Part shown: positions 6,294-32,102 of the stretch, in pieces | How positions within the stretch are numbered: the first letter of the stretch is position 1 | How the letters are laid out: every line of letters begins with the position of its first letter | Assembly (NCBI RefSeq): GCF_016863615.1 | Contig: NZ_BOPF01000030.1 | Location: 1-64,000 of the forward strand | Origin: Virgisporangium aliadipatigenens | GTDB lineage: Bacteria > Actinomycetota > Actinomycetes > Mycobacteriales > Micromonosporaceae | Length of the DNA: 64,000 nt | Direction of reading: 5' to 3' | Position numbers and translations under genes: made by a program | Notes under the pieces: generated by a model | Seen by the model: only the letters and a program-made list of their open reading frames with translations | Told to the model about the DNA's origin: nothing | The model's database searches: none

Positions 6294-6646
6294 GCACGCC
6301 CTCTTCCAAACCGTCGGGGTTGCGCAACCCGGGCGCGGCCGTGCGGGGGATCGGCGCCGGTGCGCTCGCCACGATGGCGGTGGTGCTGCTGATGGCGATC
6401 GTTCCGCTGATCAGGTTGGACGTGCCGGGTGGGGCGGTGGCGACCGTCGTGGTGCTGGTGGTCGTCGCCGTCGTGCTGTGCGGGATGCTCGGGCGGGCGT
6501 GGGCGTGGTGGGCCGGCTGGGTGGTGCCGGTCGCTCTTCTCGTCTCGGGCATCTGGTGGAACGTCGTATTGACCGTCCTCGCCGTCGTCTTCGGCCTGCT
6601 CTGGGGCTATGTGCTGTATGTGCGCAGGAGCGTGCTAACGACGTAG
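6290..6646 (+). CDS. Small DUF4233 family membrane protein
   Basis: 118 aa from the GTG that overlaps the folC stop. The protein is almost entirely membrane: four hydrophobic segments (ALATMAVVLLMAIVPLI, VATVVVLVVVAVVLCGM, WAGWVVPVALLVSGIWW, VVLTVLAVVFGLLWGYVLY). A DUF4233 protein directly after folC is a conserved actinobacterial arrangement. Its function is unknown. Its last 12 nt overlap, tail to tail, the 3' end of the VOC-protein gene on the other strand. Confidence 0.9.
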   Translation: MSTPSSKPSGLRNPGAAVRGIGAGALATMAVVLLMAIVPLIRLDVPGGAVATVVVLVVVAVVLCGMLGRAWAWWAGWVVPVALLVSGIWWNVVLTVLAVVFGLLWGYVLYVRRSVLTT

Positions 6647-9600
6647 TTCCCAGCGGGTGATCGCGATGGCGTGGCCGTCGGGGTCGCGGAACTGGGCTGC
6701 CCACAGTTCGTACTGCTCGCCCTGGTTGACGACGGTCGGCGGCAGGACGAACTCGACGCCCCTCTCGCGCAGCGCGTTGTAGGTGGCGTGCACGTCGGCG
6801 ACCTCCATGTTGAGGTGGATCACCGCCTGGTTGAGCAGTGGCCGTTTGGCCTCGCGGTGCAGTTTCACGCGCGCGTCGCCCCTGGCCAGCACCGCCGAAC
6901 GTGGGCCCGACTCGACCTCCTCCATGTCCAGCACGTCCCGGTAGAACGCCACGGAGCGGGCCAGTTCACGCACGACGAGCGTGACGCTCTCGCCGCCGAC
7001 GGTGCCGAGCTGGGACATGCTCGCGGACGGCGCGGCGAGGAACCGTTCCGGGCCGGTGGGTGCGTCGTCCCCGTCGGGCAGCCGGGACTCCGGAGGGAGC
7101 GCGCCGGTCAAGGGATCGTCGTCGCGCGGGGCCGGGATGGTCTCGGCGTGGCGTGGGGAGTGTGTGACGTACGACGTCGAACGTCGTCGCGGCAGCGGCG
7201 GGGGTTCCTCGGCGGGTGCCGTCGTCTCCGGCTCCGCGGCGGCGGCGTCATCGCCCGCGGCGGCTGGAGCGGCGTCTCGGCTCGCGGCGGTCGGGGCGGC
7301 TGCGCCGGAAGTGGCGGTGCCGTCGGTGCCGTCAGCGGCGTCGGTGGCTTCCGGGGTGGTGGCGTGCGTGTCGGTGGCAGGGGTGTCGCCGCCGTCCGTG
7401 GTGGCGTCGCCGGCGCGGCCGAGCGGGTGCCCCGGTGGGTCGGTGCGACCCGAGCGTCCGGTCTCGTCGGAGCCGGCGAATGCGCGCGGGGAGGCCTCGT
7501 CGGTGGGCGTCGACCGCGCGGCGCCGTCCGCACGGTCGAGGCCGCCGCTGCGTTCGTCCGCGTCGGCAGTGGTGTCGGTGTGGTCCGCGTCGGGCGCCGG
7601 GCCTGCCGGGCGGCGGACCGGTGCTTCGTCGGGGCTGAGCGGCCGTAGCGACAGCTCGATAGTGGCCGGGCCGGAGCTCGCCGGCGGGGTGTCCGGAGCG
7701 GCGGCCGGCTCGTCCGCGAACGCGCCCTCCGCCTCGTAGTCGTAGGGCTCCTCGACGAAGGCCGCCTCGGCCTCGTGGTCGTACGGCACCTCCGGGCCGG
7801 CCGGCGGCGTGGGAGCGGGCCGCTCCAGCGTGTTGGAGTAGCCGTTCACCCGGGAAGGGTCGTCGACGACCACCGTCTCGACGGCGATGCCGACCGGCGG
7901 GCCGGCGTCGGCACCGGGCCGGCCGGCGAAGTCGCGGTCATCGACGTCATCGACGTCGTCGGGCTCGTCGACGTCGGGGGAGAAGGCCTCGGCGTCGAAC
8001 CCGGGGCCCGCCCCGGGCGGGGCCCCGGCCGACGGCCCGTCCTCGGTGCCGCCGGGTACCCGCCATACCGGCGCGATGGTCGAACGCGGCACCTCCGCGA
8101 CGGGTGCGGCCTCGCCGGGCGGCGGGGCGCCGACAGTGGTTCCCGCGGGGGAGGCCGCGTCGTCGGAGTCGAGGCGATCAAGGAGGCCGTCGTCCGGCGC
8201 CGACGCGGTCGCCGGGTCATCCGCCGTGACGGCCGTCCCCGAAGCCGCCGCGCCGGCCGGAGCGTCCGCGGCGGAGGAACCGGGGGAGGCGGGCGTCCCG
8301 AAGGTCGACGAGGGCGCCGGTCCGGTGGCGGCGGAGAGCGCCGAACCGGACTCCGCGGCGGCGGCCCCCGAGACGGCGGTGCGGAACGGCAGTTCCTGCT
8401 CGCGATCGGGTGCGCTGCTCGGCGGCACCGGCTGCGCCAGCGGTTCCCAGATGTCGCCCGCCGGCGTCGATGCCGCGATCTCCGCGTTGTTGTCGTCCGG
8501 CGCGTAGTAGTCGGAGGCGTACGGGTCGGGCGTGTAGGTGTCGTCCTCGGAGTAGCGGCCGCCGGCGTACCGGTCGTCGGGCGGAGTGTCCTCGGTGGGA
8601 GAGGCGTCGGTGGGAGAGGCGTCGCCCTCCAGGTCGTACGGCACGTCGGTGCCCGAACGGCCGGCCGCGAACGCGAACGGCTCCTGCGGCGGCGGGGGCG
8701 CCTCGACCGGCCGGCGGTGCTCCTCGGCGGTGTCCCACACCTTGGCGGCGCGGCGCGGCGGGTCGATGATCGTGCCGGTCAGCACGGGGCCGCCGCTGTC
8801 GCTGTCGCGCGGCTGCCCGTGGTCGCCGGCGAGCAGGTCACCGCTCATGACGTCGAGGTCGCTGGGCTCGGGGCGGGACTCCGGGCGTTCCGGATAATCG
8901 GAGACGCGCGGAGCGGGACTGACCGGCGGCGGCACGGCGGCCGCGTCCTCGGGGTCGGTGACCGGCAGCGGCCAGGAGGGTGGCGGCTGGGCGGGCGACG
9001 TGGGGGCGGTCTCGACCGGCTCGTCGGCGTAGCGCGGGCCGATGGTGTGCGCGCCGGCGGCGGCCGCGACGGGGGTCTCGTCCGGCGCGCGTCGCGGCCG
9101 TGGACGCTTGCGGCCCGGGGAGGGGCGGCGCGGCGGGGCGGCGACCACGACGGGCGGCGGAACGGCCACCTCGACGGGCTCGACCTCCTGCGCCTGCATG
9201 ACGATCACCGGCGCCGATGCGGTGCGGTCGTCGATCTCGACCTCGGCCGGCGGCTGCGGAACGGGCGGCAGCGGGCTGCCCGGCATCGCGACGACCACCG
9301 GGTCGTACTCGTCCACGTCGACGGCGGGCGGGACGCTGGTGACGTGCTCGGGGAAGAGTTCCTCGCCGGCGAGTGCGTGGGTGGCGATCCGGTCCCACAG
9401 CACCTTGACCTTGCGCGCGTTGTTGGCGGCGACCTCGACCGGCAGCGTGGCGCCGTCGTCCGGCCATTTGCTGATCGGAACGGCCGGGTCGAGCACCCGC
9501 ACCGCGACCCCGTCGATGCCGTGGGCGTAGACGGACAGGTGCAGTTCGCAGCGGCCGACGGTGCCGGAGGAGGGCGGCGGAGAGGCGCTGTGCACATGGG

Positions 9601-9811
9601 CGGTGCCGTAGACCCATTCGTGCTCGCGCCCACGCACGGCGGTGACGACGAGCAGCACCGGCCCGAGAACGCCGATCGCGACGCCCAGGGCCATGATGCC
9701 GGGGTTGCCGAGGCCGATGCCGAAGCAGAAGACGAACAACCCGAGCGCGATCAACCCGACGGCGATGAATGCGCGCCCGTGCGACAGCGAGTAACGATTG
9801 CTGTTGGCCAA
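6635..9811 (-). CDS. Membrane-anchored protein with long disordered linker and C-terminal VOC (glyoxalase-like) domain
   Basis: 1058 aa from TTG 9811, which has GGGGAGGA 5 nt upstream; an ATG five codons earlier (9826) has no ribosome site and is the alternative. Order: two adjacent membrane helices (residues about 10-50), a small domain (HLSVYAHGIDGVAVRVLDP), about 700 residues of Pro/Ala/Asp/Glu/Thr-rich linker with several Tyr/Asp repeats (PYDHEAEAAF, PYDYEAEGAF), and a final 118-residue VOC fold (TLVVRELARSVAFYRDVLDM to FRDPDGHAIAITRWEL). VOC domains bind metal and small substrates; this one keeps the His/Glu-type positions (IHLNMEVADV, YELWAAQF). A VOC domain on a long tether next to a secretion locus is unusual. 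The substrate is unknown. Confidence 0.85.
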   Translation of the reverse strand: MANSNRYSLSHGRAFIAVGLIALGLFVFCFGIGLGNPGIMALGVAIGVLGPVLLVVTAVRGREHEWVYGTAHVHSASPPPSSGTVGRCELHLSVYAHGIDGVAVRVLDPAVPISKWPDDGATLPVEVAANNARKVKVLWDRIATHALAGEELFPEHVTSVPPAVDVDEYDPVVVAMPGSPLPPVPQPPAEVEIDDRTASAPVIVMQAQEVEPVEVAVPPPVVVAAPPRRPSPGRKRPRPRRAPDETPVAAAAGAHTIGPRYADEPVETAPTSPAQPPPSWPLPVTDPEDAAAVPPPVSPAPRVSDYPERPESRPEPSDLDVMSGDLLAGDHGQPRDSDSGGPVLTGTIIDPPRRAAKVWDTAEEHRRPVEAPPPPQEPFAFAAGRSGTDVPYDLEGDASPTDASPTEDTPPDDRYAGGRYSEDDTYTPDPYASDYYAPDDNNAEIAASTPAGDIWEPLAQPVPPSSAPDREQELPFRTAVSGAAAAESGSALSAATGPAPSSTFGTPASPGSSAADAPAGAAASGTAVTADDPATASAPDDGLLDRLDSDDAASPAGTTVGAPPPGEAAPVAEVPRSTIAPVWRVPGGTEDGPSAGAPPGAGPGFDAEAFSPDVDEPDDVDDVDDRDFAGRPGADAGPPVGIAVETVVVDDPSRVNGYSNTLERPAPTPPAGPEVPYDHEAEAAFVEEPYDYEAEGAFADEPAAAPDTPPASSGPATIELSLRPLSPDEAPVRRPAGPAPDADHTDTTADADERSGGLDRADGAARSTPTDEASPRAFAGSDETGRSGRTDPPGHPLGRAGDATTDGGDTPATDTHATTPEATDAADGTDGTATSGAAAPTAASRDAAPAAAGDDAAAAEPETTAPAEEPPPLPRRRSTSYVTHSPRHAETIPAPRDDDPLTGALPPESRLPDGDDAPTGPERFLAAPSASMSQLGTVGGESVTLVVRELARSVAFYRDVLDMEEVESGPRSAVLARGDARVKLHREAKRPLLNQAVIHLNMEVADVHATYNALRERGVEFVLPPTVVNQGEQYELWAAQFRDPDGHAIAITRWELRR

Positions 9812-9918
9812 CGTCTTCCTCCCCATCGGCAACAAGTTCGAGGCTAGGCCCCCGAGGGAGAACGCGAAAGCCGACGCAGCGGCGGCGGACGAAGCAATTC
9901 CGCAAATAGTTCGCGTGA

Positions 9919-12501
9919 TTAGTTCTTGCGGATCTGCCAGACGGCGAAATCGTCGACGCGGGGGCAGGCGAGGTACACGTCGACGGCCGCGCACCCGCTC
10001 GAACGGATCGCCGTGCGGCCGACCTCGGTGCGGAAGTCCCAGCCGAGGTCGATGCCGGTGAGCGTGACCGGTTCGGCGGCGGTGGTCAGCGCCGACAGTT
10101 GCAGAACGGCGTCGGCGTCGACCGGGAGCATCGCGCCGTTGAACTTGATCGACTTGCCGCCCCGGTCGACGGCGACGGTGCGGGCCGCGTTGTCCTGCCG
10201 CGTCGGCACGAGCAGATATTCGTCGGAGTACGGAACCGATGCGGCCGGCGCGGCGAAGGGCACCGGCGTGCGGGTTTTGCGGTCGACGCCGTGCACGGCG
10301 AGTTCGCGGCTGGACGGGTCGCCGGGGCGCTGGTCGATGACGCAGGGATCCTGGCCGCAGTGGCCGACCCAGAAGGGTTCGCGGTCGCCGCCGCTGGCCA
10401 ACTGGCCGGCTCCGGAGAGGAGTTGGTAGCCCGTCTTCTTCTCGGCGAGCAGAACGTCTCCGGTGCTGGTCACCTCGACGAGTTCGGGGGGCAGGTCGGT
10501 GGGGATCGTGGTGGGTAGTGCGGTGGGTGCGGATTCGCCCTGGTACCACCAGAGTTTTCCGTCGCGGTCGGCGAAGTGCGCGGCGTCGGTGGGCAGTTCG
10601 GGGCGGTCGAGGGCGCGGGCGCCGGCGGGCAGGCGGTGCGCGGTGCCGTCCTTGACGGTTCCGTCGCCGTCGACGGTGAGCGCGCTGACGGTGCCGGCCG
10701 TGGTCTGGATCCAGTACAGCTCGACGTTGTCGGGGAAGCCGGTGCTGGGGGTTCGCAGCAGCAGGAGGTCGTTGCCGCCGATGCTCTTCTGCGCCGCCTT
10801 CCCGGTGGCGCCGTTGGCGAACACCGCGAGCCGCTTGCCGTCCCGGCCGGGCACGGCGATCGCCACGACCCAGTCGCGCGCGACGCGGACGGATTCCCAC
10901 GAGGTCGCGGTGGCGGTCCGGACGCGGTCGACCTCCTTGTCGGTCAGTCCGTAGCGTGCGACCTCGAGACTTCCGTCGGTCCGTTGCGCCACCGCCGTGA
11001 TCGAGTCGATTCCGGGGAACGCCTTGCGCACGCCGTTCGCCGCGAGATCGTCGAACGTGATCTTCGCGCTCTCGCCCAGCGGCTGGAACGACGCCTCCGG
11101 CCAGAACGCCTTGTACAGCGCTCCGCCGCAGCCCCCGCAGATCATCACGATCACCAGCAGGATGACCGGCCAGGTGCGGTACTTCGGCCGGGGCGGCAGG
11201 GGCCGGCCGGGCGGCTGCACGGCCTGGGCCGCCGGCGCCCCGCCGAACCCGTAGGGCGGCGCACCCCGCGGCGCGGCGGGAGCCGGCGGGGCCGACTGCG
11301 GATAGGCCGGCTGCGCGTACGCCGGCTGCGGGGCGGGCGACACCGGACCGGTGGAGTGCGGCGCGGCCGGCATGCCGGAGATCGGCAGCCCGGTGACGGG
11401 TGTGCCGGAGCTGGGCGCCTCGACCGTGCGCCCGTCCAGGAGCGCACCCTCGGCGACCGGGAGTTCGGGCTGGTCGAGAACGGTCGGGGCGACCCCGAGC
11501 CGGGTGTGCAGGATGCGGCTCACCAGCGGGACGCGGCTGCTGCCGCCGACCAGGAACACGTCGCTCAGGTGTGCGGGGGTGAGCCCGGCGCCGCGCAGGG
11601 TCTCCTCGACGGCGTCGACGGCGCGGGTGACGAGCGGGGTGGCGAGGTGTTCGAGCTCGTCGCGGGTGACGTGCAGGGCGGTGCTGACGCCGGGCACCGG
11701 CACGGGTGCGGAGGCGCTGCGGGAGAGCATCTCCTTGGCGGCCCGCACGTCGTCCCAGAACGTCTGCCGGTGCCGGCGGTCGATGGCCTCGGTGGGCCGG
11801 CTGATGGTGGCCCACACCTCGGGGTGCCGTTCGGCGACGAGCCGGCCGAGGTGCTCCACGAGGAGCGCGTCGATGTCGAGGCCGCCGAGGTCCTCCAGGC
11901 CGCCCGTGTTGGCGACGACCAGGGTGGAACCGTCATTGCGGATCAGCGCGACGTCGAGCGTTCCCCCGCCCAGATCGAAGATCGCGAGAACCTTGCCGGG
12001 CGGGACCGGCCGGCCCAGCGCGACCGTGAAGTACCACGCGGCGGCGACCGGCTCCGGCACCAGTCGAACATCCGACCAGCCGGCCCGGGCGGCGGCGTCG
12101 CGCAACACCTGGCGGCGGTTGGCGCCCCACTCCGCCGGGCAGGTCAGCGCGGCCGGTGGCAGATGGCCGGCGGTCTCGGTGGCGACGCGGGCGACCTGGT
12201 GCAGCGGCGCGGCGAGCAGGTCCACGACCTCGATCGGCCGGTCCCCGAGCAGAACGGCCCCGTCGTCGACCCGCCGCTTCGGGTTGGGCTCGTAGCGGGC
12301 CGGGTCCAACTGGGCGTGGCGCTGGGCGTCGCGGCCGGCCAGGAGCCCGCCGGTGTCGTCGAGGAACACGGCGCTGGGCAGGATGGGCTGGCCGTCGAAG
12401 AGGAGCGGCCGGCTGCGGCCGTCGGGCCAGTGCAGGACGGCGACGGTGTTCGACGTCCCGAGATCGATACCGAGCGTGTGGCCGCGTGGATCAACGCTCA
12501 C
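9919..12501 (-). CDS. Membrane-anchored Hsp70-family protein with extracytoplasmic C-terminal domain
   Basis: 860 aa. Residues 1 to about 385 are an actin/Hsp70 ATPase domain: phosphate-1 loop GIDLGTSNTVAVLH, phosphate-2 loop FDLGGGTLDVAL (about residue 175) and adenosine motif VFLVGGSSRVPLV (about 335). A Pro/Ala-rich linker leads to one transmembrane helix at about 439-459 (WPVILLVIVMICGGCGG). About 400 residues follow with repeated beta-strand patterns that look like a beta-propeller or sensor, and with Cys pairs (CGQDPC). No canonical DnaK substrate domain is seen. The GTG at 12501 is the start that best fits the family; no strong ribosome site precedes it. It follows the PE/PPE-like pair on the same strand behind a terminator. 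A role as a T7SS chaperone or ATPase is inference. Confidence 0.88.
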   Translation of the reverse strand: MSVDPRGHTLGIDLGTSNTVAVLHWPDGRSRPLLFDGQPILPSAVFLDDTGGLLAGRDAQRHAQLDPARYEPNPKRRVDDGAVLLGDRPIEVVDLLAAPLHQVARVATETAGHLPPAALTCPAEWGANRRQVLRDAAARAGWSDVRLVPEPVAAAWYFTVALGRPVPPGKVLAIFDLGGGTLDVALIRNDGSTLVVANTGGLEDLGGLDIDALLVEHLGRLVAERHPEVWATISRPTEAIDRRHRQTFWDDVRAAKEMLSRSASAPVPVPGVSTALHVTRDELEHLATPLVTRAVDAVEETLRGAGLTPAHLSDVFLVGGSSRVPLVSRILHTRLGVAPTVLDQPELPVAEGALLDGRTVEAPSSGTPVTGLPISGMPAAPHSTGPVSPAPQPAYAQPAYPQSAPPAPAAPRGAPPYGFGGAPAAQAVQPPGRPLPPRPKYRTWPVILLVIVMICGGCGGALYKAFWPEASFQPLGESAKITFDDLAANGVRKAFPGIDSITAVAQRTDGSLEVARYGLTDKEVDRVRTATATSWESVRVARDWVVAIAVPGRDGKRLAVFANGATGKAAQKSIGGNDLLLLRTPSTGFPDNVELYWIQTTAGTVSALTVDGDGTVKDGTAHRLPAGARALDRPELPTDAAHFADRDGKLWWYQGESAPTALPTTIPTDLPPELVEVTSTGDVLLAEKKTGYQLLSGAGQLASGGDREPFWVGHCGQDPCVIDQRPGDPSSRELAVHGVDRKTRTPVPFAAPAASVPYSDEYLLVPTRQDNAARTVAVDRGGKSIKFNGAMLPVDADAVLQLSALTTAAEPVTLTGIDLGWDFRTEVGRTAIRSSGCAAVDVYLACPRVDDFAVWQIRKN

Positions 12502-12543
12502 GGATGGCGATACTACGACGCCCGCGCACCTGTCCACGCACGG

Positions 12544-12575
12544 CGGCGGGTGGACCGCGATCGATCCACCCGCCG
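12544..12575 (-). terminator. Terminator between the PPE-like gene and the Hsp70 gene
   Basis: A perfect 11-bp stem, CGGCGGGTGGA (12544-12554) and TCCACCCGCCG (12565-12575), encloses a 10-nt loop. It lies just past the stop of the minus-strand PPE-like gene. No T-run follows, which is common in high-G+C genomes. Confidence 0.6.
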
Positions 12576-12586
12576 TGAGAACGCCG

Positions 12587-13924
12587 TCACTGGGAAGGCT
12601 CGCGCGGCTCCGGCGGCTCGCTCCCGCCGAGAACGGGCGGCGGCACGTCGGAGTCGTCGCCCCAGACCAGCCGGTCCTCGGTGAGCCAGGTGTCGTACTC
12701 GGCCGTCTCGTCGGGCGCCGCGCCGCGCCCACCCGTCGCGGCGGTCGGACGTCCGGCTCGCTGGGCCGGTGCCGGCCGGTTGCCCGGGGCGGATCCGGTG
12801 CCGGTCCGGGCCGCGGCTGTGCCGGAGGGGCCGCGCATCGCCGAGCGGTCGGTGCCGGTCTCGCCGCGCGTGCCGCTCGTGGGCCGGCGGGGTGCGCTCG
12901 CCGCGCGGGTGCCCCCGGTGCCGCGCCCCACCCCGGAGGCCGAACGCGTGTCGACGCCGTGGCCGGGGCCGGCCGGGGTGCCGCCGAGCGGGGTGCCGGT
13001 GCCCAGCTGGCCGGCGCTGAGCGAGGTGCCGGCGCCGGCGGTGCCCAGCCCGGCGACCGGTCCGCCGGTGCCGGCGCCGAGTCCGGCACCGGCGCCCGCG
13101 AGGGACGTGTCGGGGCCGGCGCTGACCGGGACGACGGCGCCGTCGGTGAGGGCCGGGTCGGTGCCGCCCGGTCCGACGTCGGGGCCGCCGGAGACCTGGC
13201 CGGGCAGGTCGACGCCGCTGGTCTGCTCGTTGCCGGGCGCGTGCGTGCGGTACAGCAGGCTCGGGTCGGTGGCGCCCGGCCCGAACCGGTTGCCGCCGGT
13301 CTGGTCGACGCTGCCGAGCGGCATCTCGATCGGCGGCTCGGGCACCGGGTAGAGCTGGACGTTGCGGACCTCGAGGTACTGGTTGGAGAGGCCCTCGACG
13401 AGTTGGATCATGCGGTCGTGGGCCGCCTTCTTCTCCTTCTCGTCCTGGTCGTGCCCGTTGAACGCGCCGATGACGCCGCCGGTGATCATGCCGGGGAGCC
13501 CCGCGACGGCGCCCGTGCTCGCGCCGTCGACCGCGCCGGCGAGCAGCTTGTCGTGGTCGTCGTGCTTCTCCGGGCTCTCCGCCACCGCCTGGGCGTCACG
13601 CAGGTTGTTGCCCATGACGATGAGGGCGAAGCCGGTCTCGTTCTGGCTGACGGACAGCTCGCGGGCGTACCGGCCGATGGCGCCGACGCGCGTGACGTAC
13701 TCGACGCCGGCGGGGCTGTGCCATCCGGCGGCGACCTGCTTGAGCGTGCGCGTGAACGAGTCCGCGATGGCGGCGGTGATCTCGTACGCGGTGCTCCAGC
13801 CCAGGGCGGTGTTGAACACCTCGGGCGGATTGCCGGCGAGCAGCTGCCGGTACAGCTCCTCGTGCGACTTGCCGTCGTAGCGGCCGTCGGCGTGTTCGCG
13901 GATGCGGCCCTGCTCCTCAGCCAT
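12587..13924 (-). CDS. PPE-like / WXG-type T7SS substrate (module 1, large partner)
   Basis: 445 aa. The N-terminal half is helical, with a WXG100-like helix-turn (GWHSPAGVEYVTRV at about residue 67) and a Gly/Ala segment (AGAVDGASTGAVAGLPGMIT) that may touch the membrane. About 230 residues of Gly/Ala/Thr/Pro low complexity follow. The C-terminus carries TWL-x-ED-x2-VWG followed by D-x-PP-x2-LG, a motif also present at the end of the protein at 30714-32081. Its ATG overlaps the stop of the small upstream gene by 8 nt, exactly as in the second module. I infer a secreted or surface-exposed partner of the 131-aa protein, analogous to mycobacterial PE-PPE pairs; sequence identity to true PPE proteins is not claimed. 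Confidence 0.8.
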   Translation of the reverse strand: MAEEQGRIREHADGRYDGKSHEELYRQLLAGNPPEVFNTALGWSTAYEITAAIADSFTRTLKQVAAGWHSPAGVEYVTRVGAIGRYARELSVSQNETGFALIVMGNNLRDAQAVAESPEKHDDHDKLLAGAVDGASTGAVAGLPGMITGGVIGAFNGHDQDEKEKKAAHDRMIQLVEGLSNQYLEVRNVQLYPVPEPPIEMPLGSVDQTGGNRFGPGATDPSLLYRTHAPGNEQTSGVDLPGQVSGGPDVGPGGTDPALTDGAVVPVSAGPDTSLAGAGAGLGAGTGGPVAGLGTAGAGTSLSAGQLGTGTPLGGTPAGPGHGVDTRSASGVGRGTGGTRAASAPRRPTSGTRGETGTDRSAMRGPSGTAAARTGTGSAPGNRPAPAQRAGRPTAATGGRGAAPDETAEYDTWLTEDRLVWGDDSDVPPPVLGGSEPPEPREPSQ

Positions 13925-14312
13925 CGTTGCCCCCGTTCAGCGCCGCGGCCACGCCACCGAGCACGTTCTCGATGTCCTTGGAGTTGGCGTTGTTGCGGGC
14001 CTCGGTGCTGGTGTAGTTGGTGATGATCGTGTCGGTGGCCCGCTGCGCCGCCTCGATCGCCGAGATGAGCCGGCGGACGTTGGCGACCTGCGTGGCGTGC
14101 CGGGTCGCGTGCTGACCGGACGTGGTCCCCGCGTCGTAGAAGCCGCCCAGCGGTAGCGACGCCGGGACCTGGTCCCGAAGATGGGCCAGGAGCCCGTTGG
14201 CTTCCTTCAGACGGTTGTCGAGCGTCTTGCGGAAATCCTCCAACGACAAAATGTCGATGTTGGTCGATTGATCAACCATCGACAGCCCCCCGTTCTCTGC
14301 GGTGGTTGCCAT
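13917..14312 (-). CDS. PE-like small T7SS protein with Y-x3-E export signal (module 1, small partner)
   Basis: 131 aa, predicted all-helical. Near the C-terminus it has NYTSTEARNNAN, a Y-x-x-x-E motif of the type that targets one member of an ESX pair for export. The same block occurs in the proteins at 30287-30721 (QYKTTEARNAAN) and 25116-25400 (NYITTEANNAKV). Two starts are possible: ATG 14312 with AGGA 4 nt upstream, or ATG 14279 with GGGGGG 6 nt upstream. The gene overlaps the PPE-like gene by 8 nt, so the two are likely co-translated and form a heterodimer. No exact family name is claimed. Confidence 0.8.
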   Translation of the reverse strand: MATTAENGGLSMVDQSTNIDILSLEDFRKTLDNRLKEANGLLAHLRDQVPASLPLGGFYDAGTTSGQHATRHATQVANVRRLISAIEAAQRATDTIITNYTSTEARNNANSKDIENVLGGVAAALNGGNDG

Positions 14313-14441
14313 GTATTCCTAGATGGGTCTCTAGGGGGATACGCCGGCCCGCGTATCACGGTTCACTGGCACCAAGGCTAGTTCCTTGGCGCCAACCATA
14401 TCGGTCGGGGGCACTTCGAGCAGCATCTATTACCGAGTGTG

Positions 14442-16001
14442 TCAACGTGATGACGATGCCGCCGGGGCAGAACGGGACGGCGGTGACGAACTCGGCGCGG
14501 CGGACGGCGGGGTCGGTGATCGACTCGGCGTCGGACTCGGCGGGGGTGTCGGCGTCCCGGCACCGCCGCCGCTGCCGTTGCCGCCGGAGGGCGTCGGACC
14601 TGCCGGCGTCGGCCGGAAGAACTGCCCCGCCGCGGCCGGGTCGAGCGTCGGCCCCGACGGCACCAGCGCGAGCAACTGCGCCGGAACGGGCACCGGCGCG
14701 TACCCCGCGAAGCCGAGCGCCTCCTGGGCGCGCACCTGGCCGGAGTCCTTGAGCGCGTACCGGATGCCGAGATCGGTGATCAGGTACACCGTCCCGTTGG
14801 CGTTGACGCCCGGCACCGGCTGCTCCCGCACCACGGCACCGCGGCCGTGCTCGACCAGGACCCGGTCGACCGCGAGGATGCCGTCGGCGCTGACGTTCTG
14901 GTTGGTGCTCGGCGGGATGGCCAGCGACTCCGAGCCGGCGGCCTGATAGCCCACCACCGTGCTGATCTTGCCGTTGCGCTCGTCGCCGCGGAACGTCGAG
15001 CACACCATGCTCAGGTCGTTGCGGCCGGTGCTGACCTTGGGCAGTGCGGTCGGGAAGCCCTCCGGCTCGATCTTCTCCGCCAGGTTGGCGGCCTCGCCGG
15101 CCGTGATCTCCACAGCCCGGTCCGAGATGGTCAGCAGCCGCGCCGTCACGTCGCCGATCGGGGCCAGCCCCTTGGTCGTCAGCACGTAGGACGACTGGCC
15201 GCTGCGGTACACCCGGCCGATCACGCCCGGTGACCCGGCGAGACGGATCGCGCTCTGCTGGCCCTTGCCCGCGATGTCCGGCGGCACCAGGTCGGGGCCG
15301 CGCGTGATGCCGTTGACCAGCTGGGTGGCGACCGGGTAGGTCGGCGCGGCGGCCAGGTCCAGCGCGGTGAGCGTCGAGGGGTCCTTGATCTCGTAGAGCC
15401 GGTCCTGCCAGAGCAGGAACCGCTGCTGGCTGCCGCCGCGGCCGGTGGTCAGCAGCAGGGTGGTCTCGCCCGGCAGGGTGCCGCCGGCGGGTGTGCGCCC
15501 CACGAGCAGATGCGTCGTCGGCGTTTCCGAACCCTCGATGCCCGGCACGCTGCACAGCGTCCACGGCACGCCCAGCAGCGACTTCTTGTCCGGCGGCGGG
15601 TCCGGCGCACCCGGGATCCCGATCGGGTCGCCGACCGGGAACGCCGCCAGCGACCGGCGCGACATCTGCTTCACCCGCGGGCTCGGCGACCCGGCGAACA
15701 GCAGCGCGGACGACCAGTTCAGGACGGGGTGCAGGGTGCCCTCGACCATCGCGAAGCGGGCACCGGTCTCCCGCATGATCACCAGATCGCCGTTGTCGGC
15801 CTTGCCGCCGGCCGGGTTGAGGAACCCGTAGATGCCCACCACGGCGAACACGATCGCGGCGACGATCACGCCGCCGAACAGCGACAGCGCGAGCCGGCGC
15901 ATCGGGCGTTCGGTGGTCTCGGGCTCACCGGACAACAGGGCGGAAACGATCCGTCGAGTGACGAACCGGTGTGCCTGCACCTGTTCATGGCGAGTCCCCA
16001 T
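14442..16001 (-). CDS. eccB: Type VII secretion membrane protein EccB
   Basis: 519 aa, normal for EccB. The ATG at 16001 has GGGAGG 4 nt upstream. The start MGTRHEQVQAHRFVTRRI is the typical cytoplasmic N-terminus of the family. A single transmembrane helix follows (LFGGVIVAAIVFAVVGIYGF, about residues 40-60), then the large periplasmic core (GARFAMVEGTLHPVLNWSSA onward) with a Cys pair, and a Pro/Thr/Ser-rich C-terminal tail. EccB joins EccC, EccD and EccE in the ESX core complex and forms its outward-facing ring. It is divergent from eccE across a 111-nt gap. Confidence 0.96.
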   Translation of the reverse strand: MGTRHEQVQAHRFVTRRIVSALLSGEPETTERPMRRLALSLFGGVIVAAIVFAVVGIYGFLNPAGGKADNGDLVIMRETGARFAMVEGTLHPVLNWSSALLFAGSPSPRVKQMSRRSLAAFPVGDPIGIPGAPDPPPDKKSLLGVPWTLCSVPGIEGSETPTTHLLVGRTPAGGTLPGETTLLLTTGRGGSQQRFLLWQDRLYEIKDPSTLTALDLAAAPTYPVATQLVNGITRGPDLVPPDIAGKGQQSAIRLAGSPGVIGRVYRSGQSSYVLTTKGLAPIGDVTARLLTISDRAVEITAGEAANLAEKIEPEGFPTALPKVSTGRNDLSMVCSTFRGDERNGKISTVVGYQAAGSESLAIPPSTNQNVSADGILAVDRVLVEHGRGAVVREQPVPGVNANGTVYLITDLGIRYALKDSGQVRAQEALGFAGYAPVPVPAQLLALVPSGPTLDPAAAGQFFRPTPAGPTPSGGNGSGGGAGTPTPPPSPTPSRSPTPPSAAPSSSPPSRSAPAASSSR

Positions 16002-16092
16002 CGCACCTCCCCCGTGGCGAGCGGCGACCCTACAATACGGCGGCCGTCGTAGGCTGTGGTGGCCGTTCGGCGGTGCGGGGAGGCGACCACAA
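16002..16092. promoter_or_regulatory. Divergent eccB/eccE control region
   Basis: This short gap must hold promoters for both directions. On the plus strand TACAAT (16031-16036) is a good -10 match, but I see no convincing -35 box. On the minus strand GGGAGG lies just before the eccB ATG. No operator-like repeat is visible. Confidence 0.4.
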
Positions 16093-16116
16093 ATGACGAT
16101 CATCAATTCGGCATGA
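16093..16116 (+). CDS. Possible 7-residue leader peptide coupled to eccE
   Basis: ATG at 16093 is preceded by GGGGAGG with suitable spacing and encodes MTIINSA, then TGA. The stop overlaps the eccE ATG as ATGA. eccE itself has no ribosome site at that ATG, so this minigene could deliver ribosomes to eccE by termination-reinitiation. It could also be chance, with eccE starting at an upstream in-frame GTG (16056). Its low T and high A content differs from neighbouring coding sequence. Confidence 0.4.
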   Translation: MTIINSA

Positions 16117-17342
16117 CGGCACCACCGACCAGCCGTCCGCGGGTCGGCGGGCCGCCCGGCCCCACCGGGCCACCGGTCCGGCCGCCCGCTCCGGTCGCGC
16201 CGGCGCGCGTCCGCAAGGTGAGCCAGCGGGTCTCCACGGGACGGCTGGTGCTCTTCGAGATCGTCGCCGTCGCGGTGGCGCTGGCGGCGTTCAGCGGCTC
16301 GTCGATCGCGCTGATCGCGGTGACCGTCTGCGGCGGCGCGGTCGTCTTCGTGGCGTTCCTGCGCGGCAACGGGCGCTGGTGGACCGAGTCGCTGACGCTG
16401 CGGCGGGAGTGGCGGCGCCGGCGCGCCGTGGGTTCGCGGGTGGAGCGGGTGATCGTGGGCCACGACGACCGCGGCACGACCGTCGGCATCGGCTGTGACG
16501 AGGGCGGCTGGTACGCCGCCGTCGCGGTCGCGCCGGCCGCCGGGGTCGAGGGGCGCCGGGGCGGCGCGGTGCCGGTCGAGGCGCTCGCCGCGCTCGTGGT
16601 CGACCCGTCGGTGCCGGTCTCCGCGATCCAACTGACCAGCCTCGCCGTTCCGTCGCCGCAGTACCTGACCCCGCGCCAGTCGCCGGCCGCCGCTTCCTAT
16701 GTCGAACTGGCGCGCGACCTCGTCGCCACCGGACCACCGCCGATCGAGCAGCGCGACTGGATCACCGTTCGGCTGACCGTCGACGACGCGGTGACCGCCG
16801 CGTACAGCCGGGGCGGCGGCACGGTGGGCGTGCACCGGGCGCTGACCTCGGTCGTCGGGCGGGTCGCCAAGGCGGTCAGCGGCGCGGGTGTCGACCACGA
16901 GGTGCTCGGGCCGACCGAGCTGGCCGTGGCGGTGCAGACCTGTTCGGGGATCCCGGGCGGTGCGGAGGCGGCCGTGGCCGTGCGCGAGGAGTGGACCTCG
17001 TGGACCTCGGGCGGGCTGGTCGACGTGGCGTTCGAGGTGGCGGAGTGGCCGACCCGGGACGCGGGCTCGCTGGCGGACCTGCTGCACACGCCGGCGGCGC
17101 GGATGGTGTGCGCGTTGGAGCTGCGGCCGGTGCCTCGGCGAACGCCCGCGGATCCGGGCAGCGGCGGCGGGGTGCTCGTGCGCGGCACCGTCCGGGTGGG
17201 TGCGCTGCCGCCCCGGCTGCCGGACAGCGTGCGCGCCCTCACCGAACGCGCCGACGACCTGGGGATCAAGCTGCGGCGGCTGGACGGCTGGCACGCCCCG
17301 GCCGCCTACGCGAGCGCCCCGACCGGCGGTGGGCCGTGGTGA
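16113..17342 (+). CDS. eccE: Type VII secretion protein EccE
   Basis: 409 aa from ATG 16113; in-frame GTG codons from 16056 are alternatives. A Pro-rich N-terminus is followed by two adjacent membrane helices (LVLFEIVAVAVALAAFSG, IALIAVTVCGGAVVFVAFL) at about residues 49-85 and a cytoplasmic mixed alpha/beta domain. That layout and the position beside mycP and eccD identify EccE, the peripheral subunit of the ESX membrane complex. The stop overlaps the next start by GTGA, so the following protein is made in step with EccE. Confidence 0.88.
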   Translation: MTAPPTSRPRVGGPPGPTGPPVRPPAPVAPARVRKVSQRVSTGRLVLFEIVAVAVALAAFSGSSIALIAVTVCGGAVVFVAFLRGNGRWWTESLTLRREWRRRRAVGSRVERVIVGHDDRGTTVGIGCDEGGWYAAVAVAPAAGVEGRRGGAVPVEALAALVVDPSVPVSAIQLTSLAVPSPQYLTPRQSPAAASYVELARDLVATGPPPIEQRDWITVRLTVDDAVTAAYSRGGGTVGVHRALTSVVGRVAKAVSGAGVDHEVLGPTELAVAVQTCSGIPGGAEAAVAVREEWTSWTSGGLVDVAFEVAEWPTRDAGSLADLLHTPAARMVCALELRPVPRRTPADPGSGGGVLVRGTVRVGALPPRLPDSVRALTERADDLGIKLRRLDGWHAPAAYASAPTGGGPW

Positions 17343-18001
17343 CGCGGGCGCAGCACCAGGTGGAGCCCGCGGCGGTGGGGCGGTTCATGACGGCGGGCGG
17401 CCCGACCGGCCTGCTCGTGGGCCGCGGGACCGACGGGCAGCCGGCGCTGCTGCGGATGTTCCGGGCGCAGCCGACCCGGATCACCGTGATCGGCGGCGTG
17501 TGGCTGGGGCGCCTGGTGGTGTTCCGCGCGTTGGCGCTGGGTGCCCGGGTGCTCGTGCGCACCATGGATCCGGGCCGCTGGCAGGGGCTGGGCGAGGCGG
17601 CGACCGGTTCGGCCGAACGGGTCGTGCTCGTGCAGGGCCAGCCCGGCCCGACACCCGGGTACATCGGGGAGCCGGTGCTGCACGTGTTCGACCTCGACGG
17701 GGCACGGCCGGCCGACCTGGGCCCCACCGACGCCTGGCAGACGACGTTGACCATCGGCGCGCAGGTCACCGGGGCGGCGGCCGAGGCGCTGTCGGGCTCC
17801 GACGCGGCGGTCGTGCAGCGGATGTGGCCGCAGCAGGCGGAGTACGCGGCGGTGGTGCTCGGCATCGATCCGGAGGCGGCGGCGCCGGTTGCGGACCTGC
17901 CCGACGATATGGTCGCCGTGCTGCGCTTCGGCGAGCTGAGTTTCGTGCGCCTGGTGCCGACGAGCATCGAACGGCGGATGTTCGGGGCGCCGCAGCGTTA
18001 A
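17339..18001 (+). CDS. Conserved T7SS-locus protein with a degenerate P-loop-like motif
   Basis: 220 aa from a GTG that overlaps the eccE stop. No signal peptide or clear membrane helix. The centre reads RITVIGGVWLGRLVVFRALA, which has the layout of a Walker A strand-loop-helix (beta strand, G-x4-G, hydrophobic helix), but Lys-Ser/Thr is replaced by Arg-Leu, so it could not hydrolyse ATP in the normal way. The C-terminal part (MVAVLRFGELSFVRLVPTSI, ERRMFGAP) is well ordered. I do not recognise a named family. Translational coupling to eccE and placement before the mycosin argue for a structural or regulatory role in the secretion complex. Resemblance to a dead EccC-type ATPase module is inference. 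Confidence 0.75.
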   Translation: MTRAQHQVEPAAVGRFMTAGGPTGLLVGRGTDGQPALLRMFRAQPTRITVIGGVWLGRLVVFRALALGARVLVRTMDPGRWQGLGEAATGSAERVVLVQGQPGPTPGYIGEPVLHVFDLDGARPADLGPTDAWQTTLTIGAQVTGAAAEALSGSDAAVVQRMWPQQAEYAAVVLGIDPEAAAPVADLPDDMVAVLRFGELSFVRLVPTSIERRMFGAPQR

Positions 18002-18024
18002 GGGCGTTCCCTGGGGAGGGTTTT

Positions 18025-19155
18025 GTGGGTCGGAAGCTTCGCAGCGCAGCCGTCGGGTGTGTGGTCGGGGCGGTGGCTGCGGTGCTCCTGCCCGTTCCCG
18101 CGACTGCCGCACCGACGGAGCAGTGGCATCTCGCGGCGCTGCGGATCCCGGAGGCGCACCAGATCACGAGCGGAACGGGCGTGGTGGTGGCCGTGATCGA
18201 CAGCGGCGTGCGCCCGCACCCGGACCTCGACGGGCAGGTGCTCGCCGGCACGGACATCTCCGACAAGGACCCCTCGGAGGACAACGGGCACGGCACGGTC
18301 TGCGCGGCGCTGATCGCCGGGCGGGGGCCCGCCCCGGGCAAGATCCTCGGCATCGCGCCCGGGGCGAAGATCCTGCCGGTGCGCATCGGCAACGACGGCG
18401 GCGGCGTCGCGTTCCTCCGGCACGACGAGGCGGTGCGCTGGGCCGTCGACCACGGCGCCAAGGTGATCAACATGTCGATCGGCGTGATCGGTCGCGGGGA
18501 GGCCACCCTCGCCGACGCCGTGGCGTACGCGCTCGACCACGACGTGGTGGTCGTCGCCAGTTCCGGCAACAAGGGCGCCGACCTGGACGAGATCCCGGCG
18601 CCCGCCAACGTGCCCGGAGTGATCGCGGTCGGGGCCACCGGCCGGGACGGCAACCTCTGGGACGGCACGGTGACCGGCCCCGAACTGACCCTCACCGCGC
18701 CCGGCGTGGACCTGCCCGGCGCCTACCCGACCGACCCGGGCAAGCCCGCCCGGTACACCACGATCCCCGGCGGGACCAGCGCGTCCGCGCCGATCGTGGC
18801 CGGTGCGGCGGCCCTGGTCCGGGCGAAGTACCCGCAGTTGAGCGCCAACGACGTGATCCAGCGGCTGATCTCGACGGCCGACGACGCGGGCGAGCCCGGG
18901 CGCGACGACGAGTACGGCTACGGCCGGCTGAACATCGTGAAGGCGCTCACCGCCGACGTCGAACCGGTGACCGAGAACCCGCTCGGCGAGCCGGAGCGCA
19001 CGAGCGACGTGGCGATCCCGGCACCGGAGGAGGAACGCGACGTGACCGGTGCGCTGCTCTTCGTCGCCGGCCTGTTCGGGGTCTTCCTGCTGCTGATGAT
19101 CGGCCTGGTGGTGTTCCTCTTCTGGATCAACCGGCGGGCCAGCCTGCAGCGCTGA
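18025..19155 (+). CDS. mycP: Mycosin-type subtilisin protease 1
   Basis: 376 aa; GTG 18025 follows GGGAGG by 5-6 nt. An N-terminal signal sequence (AAVGCVVGAVAAVLLPVPATA) leads to an S8 protease domain with Asp59 (VIDSGV), His89 (NGHGTVCAALIAG) and Ser252 (GGTSASAPIVAG), plus the oxyanion Asn in SSGNKG. A C-terminal helix (LFVAGLFGVFLLLMIGLVVF) anchors it in the membrane with the catalytic domain outside. Mycosins are needed for ESX complex stability and process some substrates. It lies 23 nt after the 220-aa protein, and its stop abuts, tail to tail, the stop of eccD. Confidence 0.95.
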   Translation: MGRKLRSAAVGCVVGAVAAVLLPVPATAAPTEQWHLAALRIPEAHQITSGTGVVVAVIDSGVRPHPDLDGQVLAGTDISDKDPSEDNGHGTVCAALIAGRGPAPGKILGIAPGAKILPVRIGNDGGGVAFLRHDEAVRWAVDHGAKVINMSIGVIGRGEATLADAVAYALDHDVVVVASSGNKGADLDEIPAPANVPGVIAVGATGRDGNLWDGTVTGPELTLTAPGVDLPGAYPTDPGKPARYTTIPGGTSASAPIVAGAAALVRAKYPQLSANDVIQRLISTADDAGEPGRDDEYGYGRLNIVKALTADVEPVTENPLGEPERTSDVAIPAPEEERDVTGALLFVAGLFGVFLLLMIGLVVFLFWINRRASLQR

Positions 19156-20547
19156 TCAGCTGTCGCGGAACGTCCGGATCCAGCCGTACAGGCCGCTCAC
19201 CCACACGATCAGCGGCAGCACGCTGAGCACCATCATGATCTCGATGATGTCGAGGGTGCGGCCCCACATCGGCGACGCCCGGCGGCCGGTGTCGCGCAGC
19301 GCGTAGCCGATGCTGACGCCCGCGACGACGAGCAGCGCCACCACGACCACGGCGAGCCGCACGAGCACGTCCCCGCGGGCGAACAGCGCGATCTCCAGGG
19401 CGGCGACCCCGATCACCCCGGCGGCCAGCAGCGGCAGCCGCTGACCCGTCGAGATGAACCAGCGCGCCCGGCTCAGCATCAGCAGCCCGAGCAGGCCGCA
19501 CAGCACCAGCGACGGCGTCGACTCGGCAACCGCGAGCGTGACGGCGGTGCCCGCCGCGACGGCCGCGAGGGCGGCGAGCATCGCGGACAGGAAGTTGTCG
19601 GCCCGCTCGGCCATCGCCAGGACCCGCGCCCCGTCGACCGTCTCGGCGTCGGAGCGCACGTCCTCGGTGCCGGTCGGCACGGACGGCACCGGCAGCCCGG
19701 CCAGCCGGTAGGAGAACATCGGCAGCGCCGGCATCGCCAGCAGCGCGAACCCGACGACGATCGACGCCGCGCTGGCCGCCGCCGCGCCGGTGAGCAGGCT
19801 GATCGCCGCGCCGAGCGCCAGGGCGGACGCGGCGATACCGGTGCCCAGGAAGACGTGCGAGGCGGTGGCGATCATGACCGACCCGAGCGCCGAGACCAGG
19901 AGCACGGCCGTGGCCGCCACCAGCAGGTTGGCGCCGGACAGGTCGTCGACCGGCCGCTCGCCGGCGAAGACCAGCAGCCCGCCGACGAACGCGTACGCCA
20001 TCGCGACCAGCGCCAGCAGGATGCCCGTCGCCCGGTCGTCGAACGCCCGCGCCGCCACCACGGCGCAGCCGAGCAGCGCGACCGTGAGCAGGAGCGCCAC
20101 CAGCGCGCCCGGCAGGTGCGGCGGCCCGGCGAAGAGCACCGCGATCGCGCCGGCGACCAGGGCGAACGCGCCGAGGCCGACCCCGAACCGGCGGGTGTTG
20201 GCCGCGATCCACCGCCCCGGCCGGGTCTGGGTGGCGGTGGCCACCGCGTCGACGACGTCGTCGAAGACCGGCTCCGGGGCGGCGGCGCCGCGCGGGCGCA
20301 GGTAGAGCATGTCGCCGTCGCGGATCTCCAGTTGCAACGGCGTGCGCGCGATGTCCAGCGGCGCTCCGGCGAGCCGGGCGAGCGACCAGCCGTGCCGGCC
20401 GTCGGGGTCGTCGGCGAGCCGTTCGCCGGCGAAGCGCAGAAGTGTCGGAAGTACGTCAGCGAGCGGGACTTCGGAGGGCAGGGCGACATCGACCCGGGTC
20501 CGGGGGGCCACGATCGTCACGCGACTCAGCCCGGTGGTGCTGGTCAT
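19156..20547 (-). CDS. eccD: Type VII secretion integral membrane protein EccD
   Basis: 463 aa. Residues 1 to about 90 form a ubiquitin-like cytoplasmic domain ([35 protein letters not shown]). The rest is a series of about 11 hydrophobic helices, as expected for EccD, which makes the membrane vestibule of the ESX complex. The ATG at 20547 fits the family N-terminus; only a weak GAGGA site lies upstream. The gene faces mycP 1 tail to tail with no spacer and is divergent from eccC. Confidence 0.95.
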
Positions 20548-20667
20548 CGTTACTCTGCCTTTCCTCGTGGCTGCGGAGGGCTACACGCTTGTCGCGCAGG
20601 TTACCTAAGATTGGCCACTGTCCCGATGTCCAATTTCGCAGGTAGCGGGGCAGCGGGGAGGCGTTTC
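20548..20667. promoter_or_regulatory. Divergent eccD/eccC control region
   Basis: About 120 nt separate the two starts. GGGGAGG at 20655-20661 is the eccC ribosome site, 6 nt before GTG. The gap should hold both promoters, but I could not assign a convincing pair of -35/-10 boxes or an operator. Confidence 0.3.
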
Positions 20668-23600: not shown

Positions 23601-24621
23601 GATGGAGCTGCGGATGAACATCCGCGACCTGCTCGGCACCCGGTTGGAGCTGCGCCTCGGCGACCCGAACGAGTCGGAGATCGACCGGCGGGTGGCGGTC
23701 AACGTGCCCACCGGCGCCCCGGGGCGCGGCCTCAGCCGGGACAAGCTGCACTATCTCGCCGCGCTGCCGCGCATCGACGGTGACGGCGACCCGGAGTCCC
23801 TGCCCGAGGGCACCGCCGACCTGGTGGCCCGGGTCGGCGAGGCCTGGCACTACCAGCCCGCCCCGCGGGTGCGCCTGCTGCCGCGCACGCTGCCGCTCGA
23901 GGAACTGATGAAGGTCGTCGACGCGGACCGGCCGGGCCTGCCGATCGGGCTCAACGAGTCGCACCTGGCACCCGTGCACCTGGATCTCGCCAACGACCCG
24001 CACCTGATCGTGTTCGGCGAGGCGGAGTGCGGCAAGTCGAACCTGCTGCGGATGATCGCCCGGGTGATCGCCGACCGGTACACCCCGCAGGAGGCGCAGC
24101 TGGTTGTCGTGGACTTCCGGCGCAGCCTCCTGGGCGCGGTCGAGGGGGATCACCTGCTCGGCTACGCCGCGTCGGTCAACGTGCTCAAGGAGATGGTGGG
24201 GGCCATCCAGGGCGCCATCGTGCAGCGCCTGCCCGGCCCGGACGCGACGCCCGAACAGTTGCGCAGCCGCAGTTGGTGGCGGGGGCCGGACCTGTACGTG
24301 CTGATCGACGACTACGACCTCGTCGCGTCGCCGGGCAACAATCCGCTCCTGCCGTTGATCGATCTGGTGTCGCAGGCGCGTGACGTCGGGCTGCACCTGA
24401 TCATCGCGCGACGGATGGGCGGCGCCTCGCGCGCACTCTACGAATCGCTGCTGCAACGAATGCGTGAACTCGACGCGCCGGTCCTGATGATGAGCGGGAA
24501 ACCGGAAGAGGGGGCATTGATCGGCAATCGAAAGCCCACACTGCAACCACCCGGACGGGGCACACTTTTCCGACGAAGTGATGGTGACCAGCTCATTCAG
24601 ACCGCATGGTCGGCACCGTGA
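20668..24621 (+). CDS. eccC: Type VII secretion ATPase EccC (fused EccCa-EccCb)
   Basis: 1317 aa in one chain. Two N-terminal membrane helices ([37 protein letters not shown]) precede three FtsK/SpoIIIE ATPase modules. Walker A motifs: GATGSGKS at residue 475, GGPRSGKS at 831 and GEAECGKS at 1117. Walker B regions: [17 protein letters not shown] and LYVLIDDYD; only the first keeps the Asp-Glu pair of an active ATPase. EccC is the motor and substrate receptor of the ESX machine, and its last module binds the export signal of Esx proteins. The GTG start is set by GGGGAGG. The two Esx genes follow immediately. Confidence 0.97.
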
Positions 24622-24777
24622 TAGATCTGAGTCGATCACTAACGCACTGTCAACTCTGGCGGCGGTCGGCTACCGTGCATTGAACCGACCTCGACGTCGG
24701 GACGTATTACGGTTTGTGGCTACGCGGGGGCTCCCCTCGGGCGCGTGCCGCACCTGACAAGTGAAGGGGTGAAACCG

Positions 24778-25089
24778 ATGACCATCGCAATGGATCCGGC
24801 CACACTTCGTAAGGCGGCCAACGACATCCGCACCACCAAGGACGAGGTGGACGGTCAGCTCAAGTCGCTCTGGGGCGTGGTCGACGACCTTGCGGCGGCC
24901 TGGCTCGGTGAGGCTTCCAAGGCGTTCAACGACCTGATGCAGCGCTGGAGCACCGACACGACCAACCTGACCAACGCGATGACCAACATCGCCAGCCTCA
25001 TGGACGACGGCTCCGTCAAGGGCGAGGCCAACGACCAGGAGCAGGCCGCGATGATGAACAAGTTCAACGGCGTGCTCAACCCGTCCTGA
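24778..25089 (+). CDS. WXG100-family Esx protein (first of pair)
   Basis: 103 aa; ATG 24778 has GAAGGGG 8 nt upstream. It is a helical hairpin with the WXG turn as WLG (AAAWLGEASKAFNDL, about residue 42). It has no tyrosine and thus no Y-x3-D/E signal, so it is presumably carried out as the partner of the next protein. The 156-nt gap after eccC includes TACCGT (24671-24676), a possible -10 box, so the pair may have its own promoter. Esx proteins are exported as heterodimers by the EccC machine. Confidence 0.92.
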   Translation: MTIAMDPATLRKAANDIRTTKDEVDGQLKSLWGVVDDLAAAWLGEASKAFNDLMQRWSTDTTNLTNAMTNIASLMDDGSVKGEANDQEQAAMMNKFNGVLNPS

Positions 25090-25115
25090 CCGTTCCGACT
25101 GACCTGGGGAAAAAC

Positions 25116-32081: not shown

Positions 32082-32102
32082 CCGGCTCGGGAAGGATCAG
32101 GG

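Follow-up and report, generated by a model that had tools for sequence, protein, structure and literature searches.

We analyzed a window of 64,000 nucleotides from the soil actinomycete Virgisporangium aliadipatigenens (contig NZ_BOPF01000030.1, positions 1 to 64,000), in which a gene on the minus strand at positions 9919-12501 encodes an Hsp70-type protein of 860 amino acids, here called P0001, from a GTG start. A sequence-only reading of this DNA had correctly placed the gene, with its strand unstated. The reading frame is kept between species, with 46-49% identity to four proteins of two sister Virgisporangium species, and is therefore no chance reading. Taken together, sequence and structure models give P0001 the predicted architecture of an ATPase domain, a disordered linker, one membrane-spanning helix and an exchangeable domain outside the cell.

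The Hsp70-type ATPase domain covers residues 1-360 (11422..12501, minus strand). The Pfam HSP70 model (PF00012) matches residues 96-357 with an E-value of 3e-33 and 115.3 bits, and the DnaK model matches residues 10-357, ending at profile position 370 of 596. Because all profile matches end at positions 370-372 of about 600, with linker, transmembrane helix (TM) and propeller making up the rest of the protein, P0001 has the ATPase domain and lacks the substrate-binding domain, as the sequence-only reading had proposed on both counts. Neither profile searches nor structure models found a substrate-binding domain or lid after the ATPase domain. The phosphate, adenosine and catalytic motifs characteristic of the Hsp70 superfamily are in place: alignment with the genome’s own DnaK proteins yields the nucleotide-site residues D13, K75, E150, D176, G178-T181 and the G319-R323 region, which we take to correspond to the named DnaK residues. 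D13, K75, E150, D176 and T181 are invariant in all five aligned full-length proteins, with K75 assigned by eye as the motif-alignment script missed the K70 motif. The closest solved structures to this part are DnaK and other Hsp70s. A match to MreB_Mbl is weak (36.9 bits with a cut-off of 27, 2.5e-09) and confined to residues 108-191, and profile searches gave no match to EccA (TIGR03922) or AAA+ proteins at 0.1. We rejected a canonical DnaK chaperone as the identity of P0001 since the profiles stop before the substrate-binding domain. The protein shares the ATPase domain and nucleotide motifs with DnaK/Hsp70 chaperones, but carries a membrane helix and an outside domain instead of the substrate-binding domain and, by reading, lacks the hydrophobic interdomain linker of the DnaK type.

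Residues 361-443 (11173..11421, minus strand) form a Pro/Ala/Gly-rich linker that is predicted to be disordered, with an AlphaFold2 pLDDT of 22-40 over the block of residues 341 to 450. The single TM follows at residues 444-462 (11116..11172, minus strand; hydropathy 2.22), extending to residue 466 in the AlphaFold2 model; TM calls throughout this study are made by hydropathy. One helix had been expected at residues 439-459, about five residues from where we place it. Since four K/R residues lie within 15 residues before the helix and one within 15 residues after it, the positive-inside rule predicts that the N-terminus is inside and the C-terminal part outside.

The outside domain, residues 463-860 (9922..11115, minus strand), is a beta-propeller in the AlphaFold2 model. 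Its roughly 400 residues are nearly all beta (pLDDT 83.4, pTM 0.78), with the AlphaFold2 alignments holding 5 sequences only; the tail alignment joins that of the window to four tails of Virgisporangium aurantiacum and V. ochraceum. By structure comparison (VIA), the model matches 9qzc (Z 17.7 at 4.1 A across 337 residues), designed propellers (Z 15.6-16.3), BamB (4imm; Z 13.1, 5.4 A over 273 residues) and many other propellers (Z 12-18 over 253-337 residues), and the best Foldseek E-value is 9.2e-08. Two Cys pairs, 715/720 and 837/846, are invariant in seven of seven aligned tails. This prediction, which the sequence-only reading had suggested making, agrees with the beta-strand patterns and Cys pairs it had noticed in some 400 outside residues. 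The P0001 tail itself has no Pfam match. A hidden Markov model (HMM) seeded with six tails and iterated settles on 26 outside domains as one class, the tail of P0001 among them, and four relatives of the class (L052, L112, L125, L029_g14) have PQQ_2 matches of 20.5-27.2 bits, below the Pfam cut-off of 27.6. The fold is common to BamB/PQQ propellers (PF13360), which differ from the P0001 tail in that the latter lacks a Pfam match and is fused to an Hsp70 domain and a membrane helix. A 468-amino-acid protein at L053:9218-10624 (minus strand) has an N-terminal TM and an end like the P0001 tail without an Hsp70 domain; outside domains of this type may also exist without the ATPase.

The paralogous Hsp70 family

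The genome of V. aliadipatigenens contains 32 matches to P0001, of which 23 reach E<=1e-45 against the ATPase domain. At the same threshold we found 40 matches in V. aurantiacum and 45 in V. ochraceum, counts that may be inflated because these assemblies are marked as 10% and 7% contaminated. At least one family member is present in 18 of the 25 genomes searched, including the genome under study, and across the phylum at least three of 197 other genomes reach the threshold with 10 candidates scored per genome. From 60 fetched family loci we obtained 56 relatives. The gene caller, which ran on the codon usage of the window, missed the family gene in four loci (L118, L120, L149 and L160) where tblastn finds it, and these are uncounted.

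One TM follows the ATPase domain in 44 of the 56 relatives, two or more in 5 and none in 7, five of the last being cut by contig ends. In 33 of the 56, one TM is followed by at least 80 residues. Among 53 single-TM members that carry an outside domain, 49 have more K/R residues ahead of the helix than behind it. Among 86 family rows (23 from the genome itself, the 56 relatives and 7 more), 61 continue for 60 residues or more past the first TM, and these fall into 29 clusters by sequence (E 1e-4), among which singletons may share folds. Outside domains over the Pfam cut-offs include Kelch (L028), WD40 (L042, L039), LCCL (L035) and the periplasmic-binding/ANF receptor domain Peripla_BP_6 (L040, L169). 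P0001 has every element of the family architecture, namely the ATPase domain, the linker, one N-in TM and the outside domain. The tails of the five closest proteins are 30-32% identical to that of P0001, a much lower conservation than that of their ATPase domains and a pattern common in receptors.

In a tree of 87 ATPase domains (L110 was dropped as the same gene as L050_g8), P0001 clusters with its relatives from Virgisporangium and a single protein from another genus (g44), with support of 98/98. The propeller label requires 5 changes on this tree compared with a mean of 22.1 after shuffling, and the propeller clade also holds a Kelch protein of the same genome, three members whose outside domain is of another type and two that are TM-only. 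Outside domains are therefore mostly inherited, with occasional replacement or loss. Any finer reading of the tree is limited by long branches and near-copies.

Seven of the 60 family loci, and one of 29 other Hsp70-type loci of the genome itself (L032), have dynamin-like GTPases close to the family member. Dynamin_N was confirmed in those of the genes that were tested, and in all five loci tested a small gene separating or flanking the GTPase genes is GrpE, above the Pfam cut-off. Six of the eight dynamin-linked members belong to one modestly supported clade of 15 rows (87/65), 10 of which are TM-only, and the other two are long branches. From these neighbors we infer that a GrpE exchange factor serves the family switch and that its early outputs included membrane upkeep; the dynamin-like pair with GrpE points to upkeep of the envelope or membrane. 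Paired bacterial dynamin-like proteins of the IniA/IniC kind are known. Pairing of bacterial dynamin-like proteins in operons has been described (PMC6104087), and two Dynamin_N genes likewise occur near some family members, with the difference that a GrpE gene and a TM-Hsp70 are nearby. Neighbor clustering of 22 propeller-type loci showed cysS and rlmB immediately upstream of the Hsp70 gene in 8 of them, the gene names having been tested on L052 only; this position is conserved and suggests no evident function.

In the literature searched, with subscription papers and preprints outside its scope, we found no description of a membrane-tethered or receptor-like bacterial Hsp70, and the family is apparently undescribed and would place a known ATPase in a previously unknown, receptor-like role. 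The nearest parallel is found in the GAP1-N2 GTPase conflict systems of actinobacteria and firmicutes, where HSP70 occurs with GrpE and some systems have a second HSP70 domain without a peptide-binding domain (Kaur et al. 2020, PMC7159879). The combination of ATPase-only Hsp70, GrpE and GTPases in actinobacteria is common ground. However, the accessible portion of that paper ascribes no membrane helix or outside domain to those HSP70 proteins, and the GTPases there are GAP1-centered and here Dynamin_N, neither being found beside P0001 (no GAP1 model was searched).

Three further observations concern the family. The motif P[VTIA]SG occurs 139 times in the 86 family linkers compared with 8.4 times in shuffles and 14 times in 337 other genes; at least two copies are present in 27 of the 86 linkers and one, by eye, in that of P0001 (residues 361-443, positions 11173-11421). 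It could be a docking or modification site. In the paralog at L047:5564-9787 (plus strand) of the same genome, the frame runs into a polytopic part that by eye resembles undecaprenyl-diphosphatase, reflecting either a fusion or a missed gene boundary. The L032 locus (9184-12999), also in this genome, has genes for dynamin-like, GrpE and dynamin-like proteins in that order, with a TM-only Hsp70 gene lying a few genes away.

ESX genes beside the locus

Upstream of P0001 on the minus strand are a PPE-like gene (12587-13924) and a PE-like gene (13917-14312), both named by position and reading, as the pair (12587..14312) has no Pfam or NCBIfam match at 0.01. The ESX cluster follows at 14442..25400, with EccB, EccE, gene g12, a mycosin-like protease, EccD, EccC and two small WXG100-like genes identified with Pfam and NCBIfam, EccE being over the Pfam cut-off and below that of NCBIfam and the WXG100-like genes recognized by position and reading. 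The gap of 85 bases between the PPE-like and Hsp70 genes contains a 13-bp hairpin (12545..12574, minus strand; fold z-score -2.26), with 3 of 200 shuffles as low. A scan of 9700-14600 listed no terminator-like or sigma-70-like site in this gap. As a putative terminator the hairpin would speak against P0001 sharing an operon with the PPE-like gene, whereas the scan gives no sign of separate transcription.

We searched the window EccC in 150 genomes of the family and surveyed 46 places, 45 in 44 other genomes plus a second place in the genome itself. These are 46 of the 47 places listed between 75% and 64% identity (the second own-genome place), the lowest fetched being at 62%; G005:C182 and all weaker EccC places were left out. 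The loci are mostly 20 kb each and span the side where Hsp70 lies in the window, with a median of 6.6 kb of sequence past the PPE-like gene in the 44 loci having it (only 2 bases in L066). Among the 46 loci, EccC is present in 46, PPE-like and PE-like genes in 44 each, EccD in 42, EccB in 40 and EccE in 36. A P0001-like Hsp70 is present in none of the 46 by called genes or by tblastn on raw DNA, a recount that gave 37 instead of 36 for EccE and 36 instead of 37 for EsxA with the same outcome for Hsp70. The sole tblastn match (29% identity, 67 bits) is to a 564-amino-acid DnaK-like gene in L095, which scores 76 bits as a called gene and lies some genes away. The PE/PPE-like pair therefore accompanies the ESX cluster and not the Hsp70 gene.

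In both V. aurantiacum and V. ochraceum, two propeller Hsp70s come after valS-folC-g6-ileS, and about 40 kb of contig there contains no EccB, EccC, EccD, EccE or Esx match. The window differs from both in having the ESX cluster between Hsp70 and ileS. Matches to EccB, EccC, EccD, EccE or Esx are found at none of the 29 other Hsp70-type loci of the genome and at one of the 60 family loci (L165). The probability of at least one of the 23 family genes lying within 5 kb of an ESX locus by chance is 0.19-0.34 for an assumed 4-8 ESX loci; in the EccC search of this genome, 4 of 34 candidates were scored and all 4 matched. Conserved linkage with the core genes, as expected for an ESX/type VII component and as the sequence-only reading had proposed to look for, is thus missing for P0001, an outcome that this reading had itself named as refuting its idea.

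The absence of a visible EccA, which the same reading had pointed out for the window, extends to the whole genome, where no match is over the cut-off and the best reaches 253 of 466.65 bits in the AAA part only. None of 101 family genomes has EccA over the cut-off with 12 candidates scored per genome, and judged by these profile scores its absence is the rule in the host family. Full-length EccA-like matches of 347-378 bits, below the same cut-off, come from three genomes that belong to a single genus of the family, g12 (G084:C24:90396-91979, G049:C27:95079-96659 and G098:C1:194704-196275). As described in a previous survey, ESX-4 of actinobacteria without a mycomembrane is ancestral and eccA was gained later, as were eccE, pe and ppe (PMC4791881). 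Compared with that bare ESX-4, the cluster in the window has EccE and the PE/PPE-like pair and is therefore no bare ESX-4.

A proposed receptor-like role and its alternatives

On balance, we assign P0001 to a family of receptor-like Hsp70 proteins that has expanded within the lineage. As this is a membrane-crossing Hsp70 family with exchangeable outside domains, P0001 is likely a sensor or signaling receptor and not an ESX helper, and, to judge from sequence, the family most likely consists of one-component transmembrane receptors that use the Hsp70 nucleotide switch. Bacterial Ser/Thr receptor kinases carry exchangeable sensor domains, and the Hsp70 family resembles them in combining a cytosolic ATP-using domain, a juxtamembrane linker, one TM and an exchangeable outside domain with lineage expansion, yet has the Hsp70 ATPase in place of the kinase and no homology to it. 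Sensing by P0001, the direction of its signal and its output may be pictured as follows. The propeller would bind a ligand of the wall, the surface or the secreted proteins, and binding would alter clustering or the strain on the helix and linker. The cytosolic Hsp70 switch would then shift between its ATP and ADP states and so recruit or release a cytosolic partner, and a GrpE-type exchange factor would reset the switch. More tentatively, the actinomycetes might possess a class of receptors in which a DnaK-type switch stands in for a kinase, swappable outside domains set its ATP/ADP state, resetting is the task of a dedicated GrpE, and the ancestral output is membrane remodeling or repair by paired dynamin-like GTPases.

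Several points weigh against this interpretation. It rests on computation, with ligand and partner postulated, and receptor-like architecture does not prove sensing, as 11 of the 56 relatives have one TM with fewer than 80 residues beyond it. The full-length AlphaFold2 model of P0001 has an overall pLDDT of 63.9 and a pTM of 0.44, with the ATPase part at low confidence, and the long disordered linker in it makes tight mechanical coupling less obvious and favors clustering or tethering. Energy could also flow outward. The dynamin-like and GrpE neighbors are located at eight other loci and not at that of P0001, and contamination may add to the size of the family in the sister species. One observation favors a link with ESX: in a different family of the same order, a TM-Hsp70 gene lies 30 bases after EccD (L165). 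Among the seven orthologs of this protein, in 17 genomes including that of L165 and with flanks of 1.5 kb past the match, EccD adjoins the TM-Hsp70 in three and a dynamin-like GTPase in six; the diverged EccD of L165 matches Pfam YukD and EccD and was missed by tblastn with the window EccD. Adjacency of a TM-Hsp70 to ESX has therefore arisen in at least two lineages, and in that of L165 the two may be linked.

Three other explanations were considered, in falling order of probability. P0001 might be driven from the inside out, with an ATP-powered Hsp70 moving, displaying or assembling the propeller so that it acts on exported proteins or the cell wall, much as BamB-like propellers function within assembly complexes. 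The intact nucleotide motifs, the several outside domains that are propellers or binding domains and the match of the fold to BamB, among others, fit such a machine, but a long disordered linker between ATPase and helix is a poor force transmitter and neighbor clustering of the 22 propeller-type loci showed no assembly-complex partner, so that we consider it unlikely. Somewhat less probable still is a membrane-anchored co-chaperone or structural actin-like ATPase that polymerizes or recruits client-handling partners at the membrane, of which the actin-like form had been the alternative offered by the sequence-only reading. Hsp70 and MreB/actin share a common ATPase fold, the MreB_Mbl match is over its cut-off and some family members consist of linker and TM only; however, 37 bits for MreB compare with 115 for HSP70, the nearest structures are those of DnaK and other Hsp70s, and a protein without the substrate-binding domain offers no direct client handling of a known kind.

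The sequence-only reading had favored sensing outside the membrane coupled to an Hsp70-type ATPase that handles PE/PPE-like cargo. Of this, the membrane-tethered ATPase with a sensor-like outside domain is supported, and the coupling to ESX is not. A chaperone or sensor dedicated to ESX, replacing EccA and handling the PE/PPE-like pair, would suit the position of P0001 next to the cluster, the lack of an EccA over the cut-off in the genome and the EccD neighbors in the L165 orthologs. Against it stand the empty count at the 46 related ESX loci, the sister species that keep the Hsp70 type with no ESX nearby, the scarcity of ESX matches at other family loci, an adjacency that could arise by chance and EccA scores below the cut-off in all 101 family genomes searched. 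We rejected an ESX-dedicated function on the linkage and sister-species results and consider it very improbable; the ESX genes beside P0001 are most likely coincidental neighbors.

If P0001 and its relatives are receptors, Hsp70, the best-known of the chaperone ATPases, has on many occasions been recruited to serve as the cytosolic half of a membrane receptor, some actinomycetes hold tens of receptor-like Hsp70 proteins each, and a mode of signaling exists beside kinases and sigma/anti-sigma pairs. The receptor-like role predicts that an outside ligand changes Hsp70 ATPase cycling, and the GrpE and dynamin-like neighbors of other members make the output of the family testable.

Other genes around the locus

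Gene g6 (6635..9826, minus strand) encodes an N-terminal hydrophobic helix, a long middle part that is of low complexity by eye and a C-terminal glyoxalase domain (Pfam 1.2e-16). It lies near folC/ileS in three of three Virgisporangium genomes (homologs in L048/L054 and L049/L055). The homologs near ileS/folC in the two sister species are 830-833 amino acids long, and that of V. ochraceum has no NCBIfam match at 1e-10. Downstream of ileS, a second PE/PPE-like pair, again named by position and reading, is followed by a mycosin-like protease (30287-33404, plus strand). The protease matches TIGR03921 with an E-value of 8.5e-73 and 245.5 bits, under the cut-off of 278.75.

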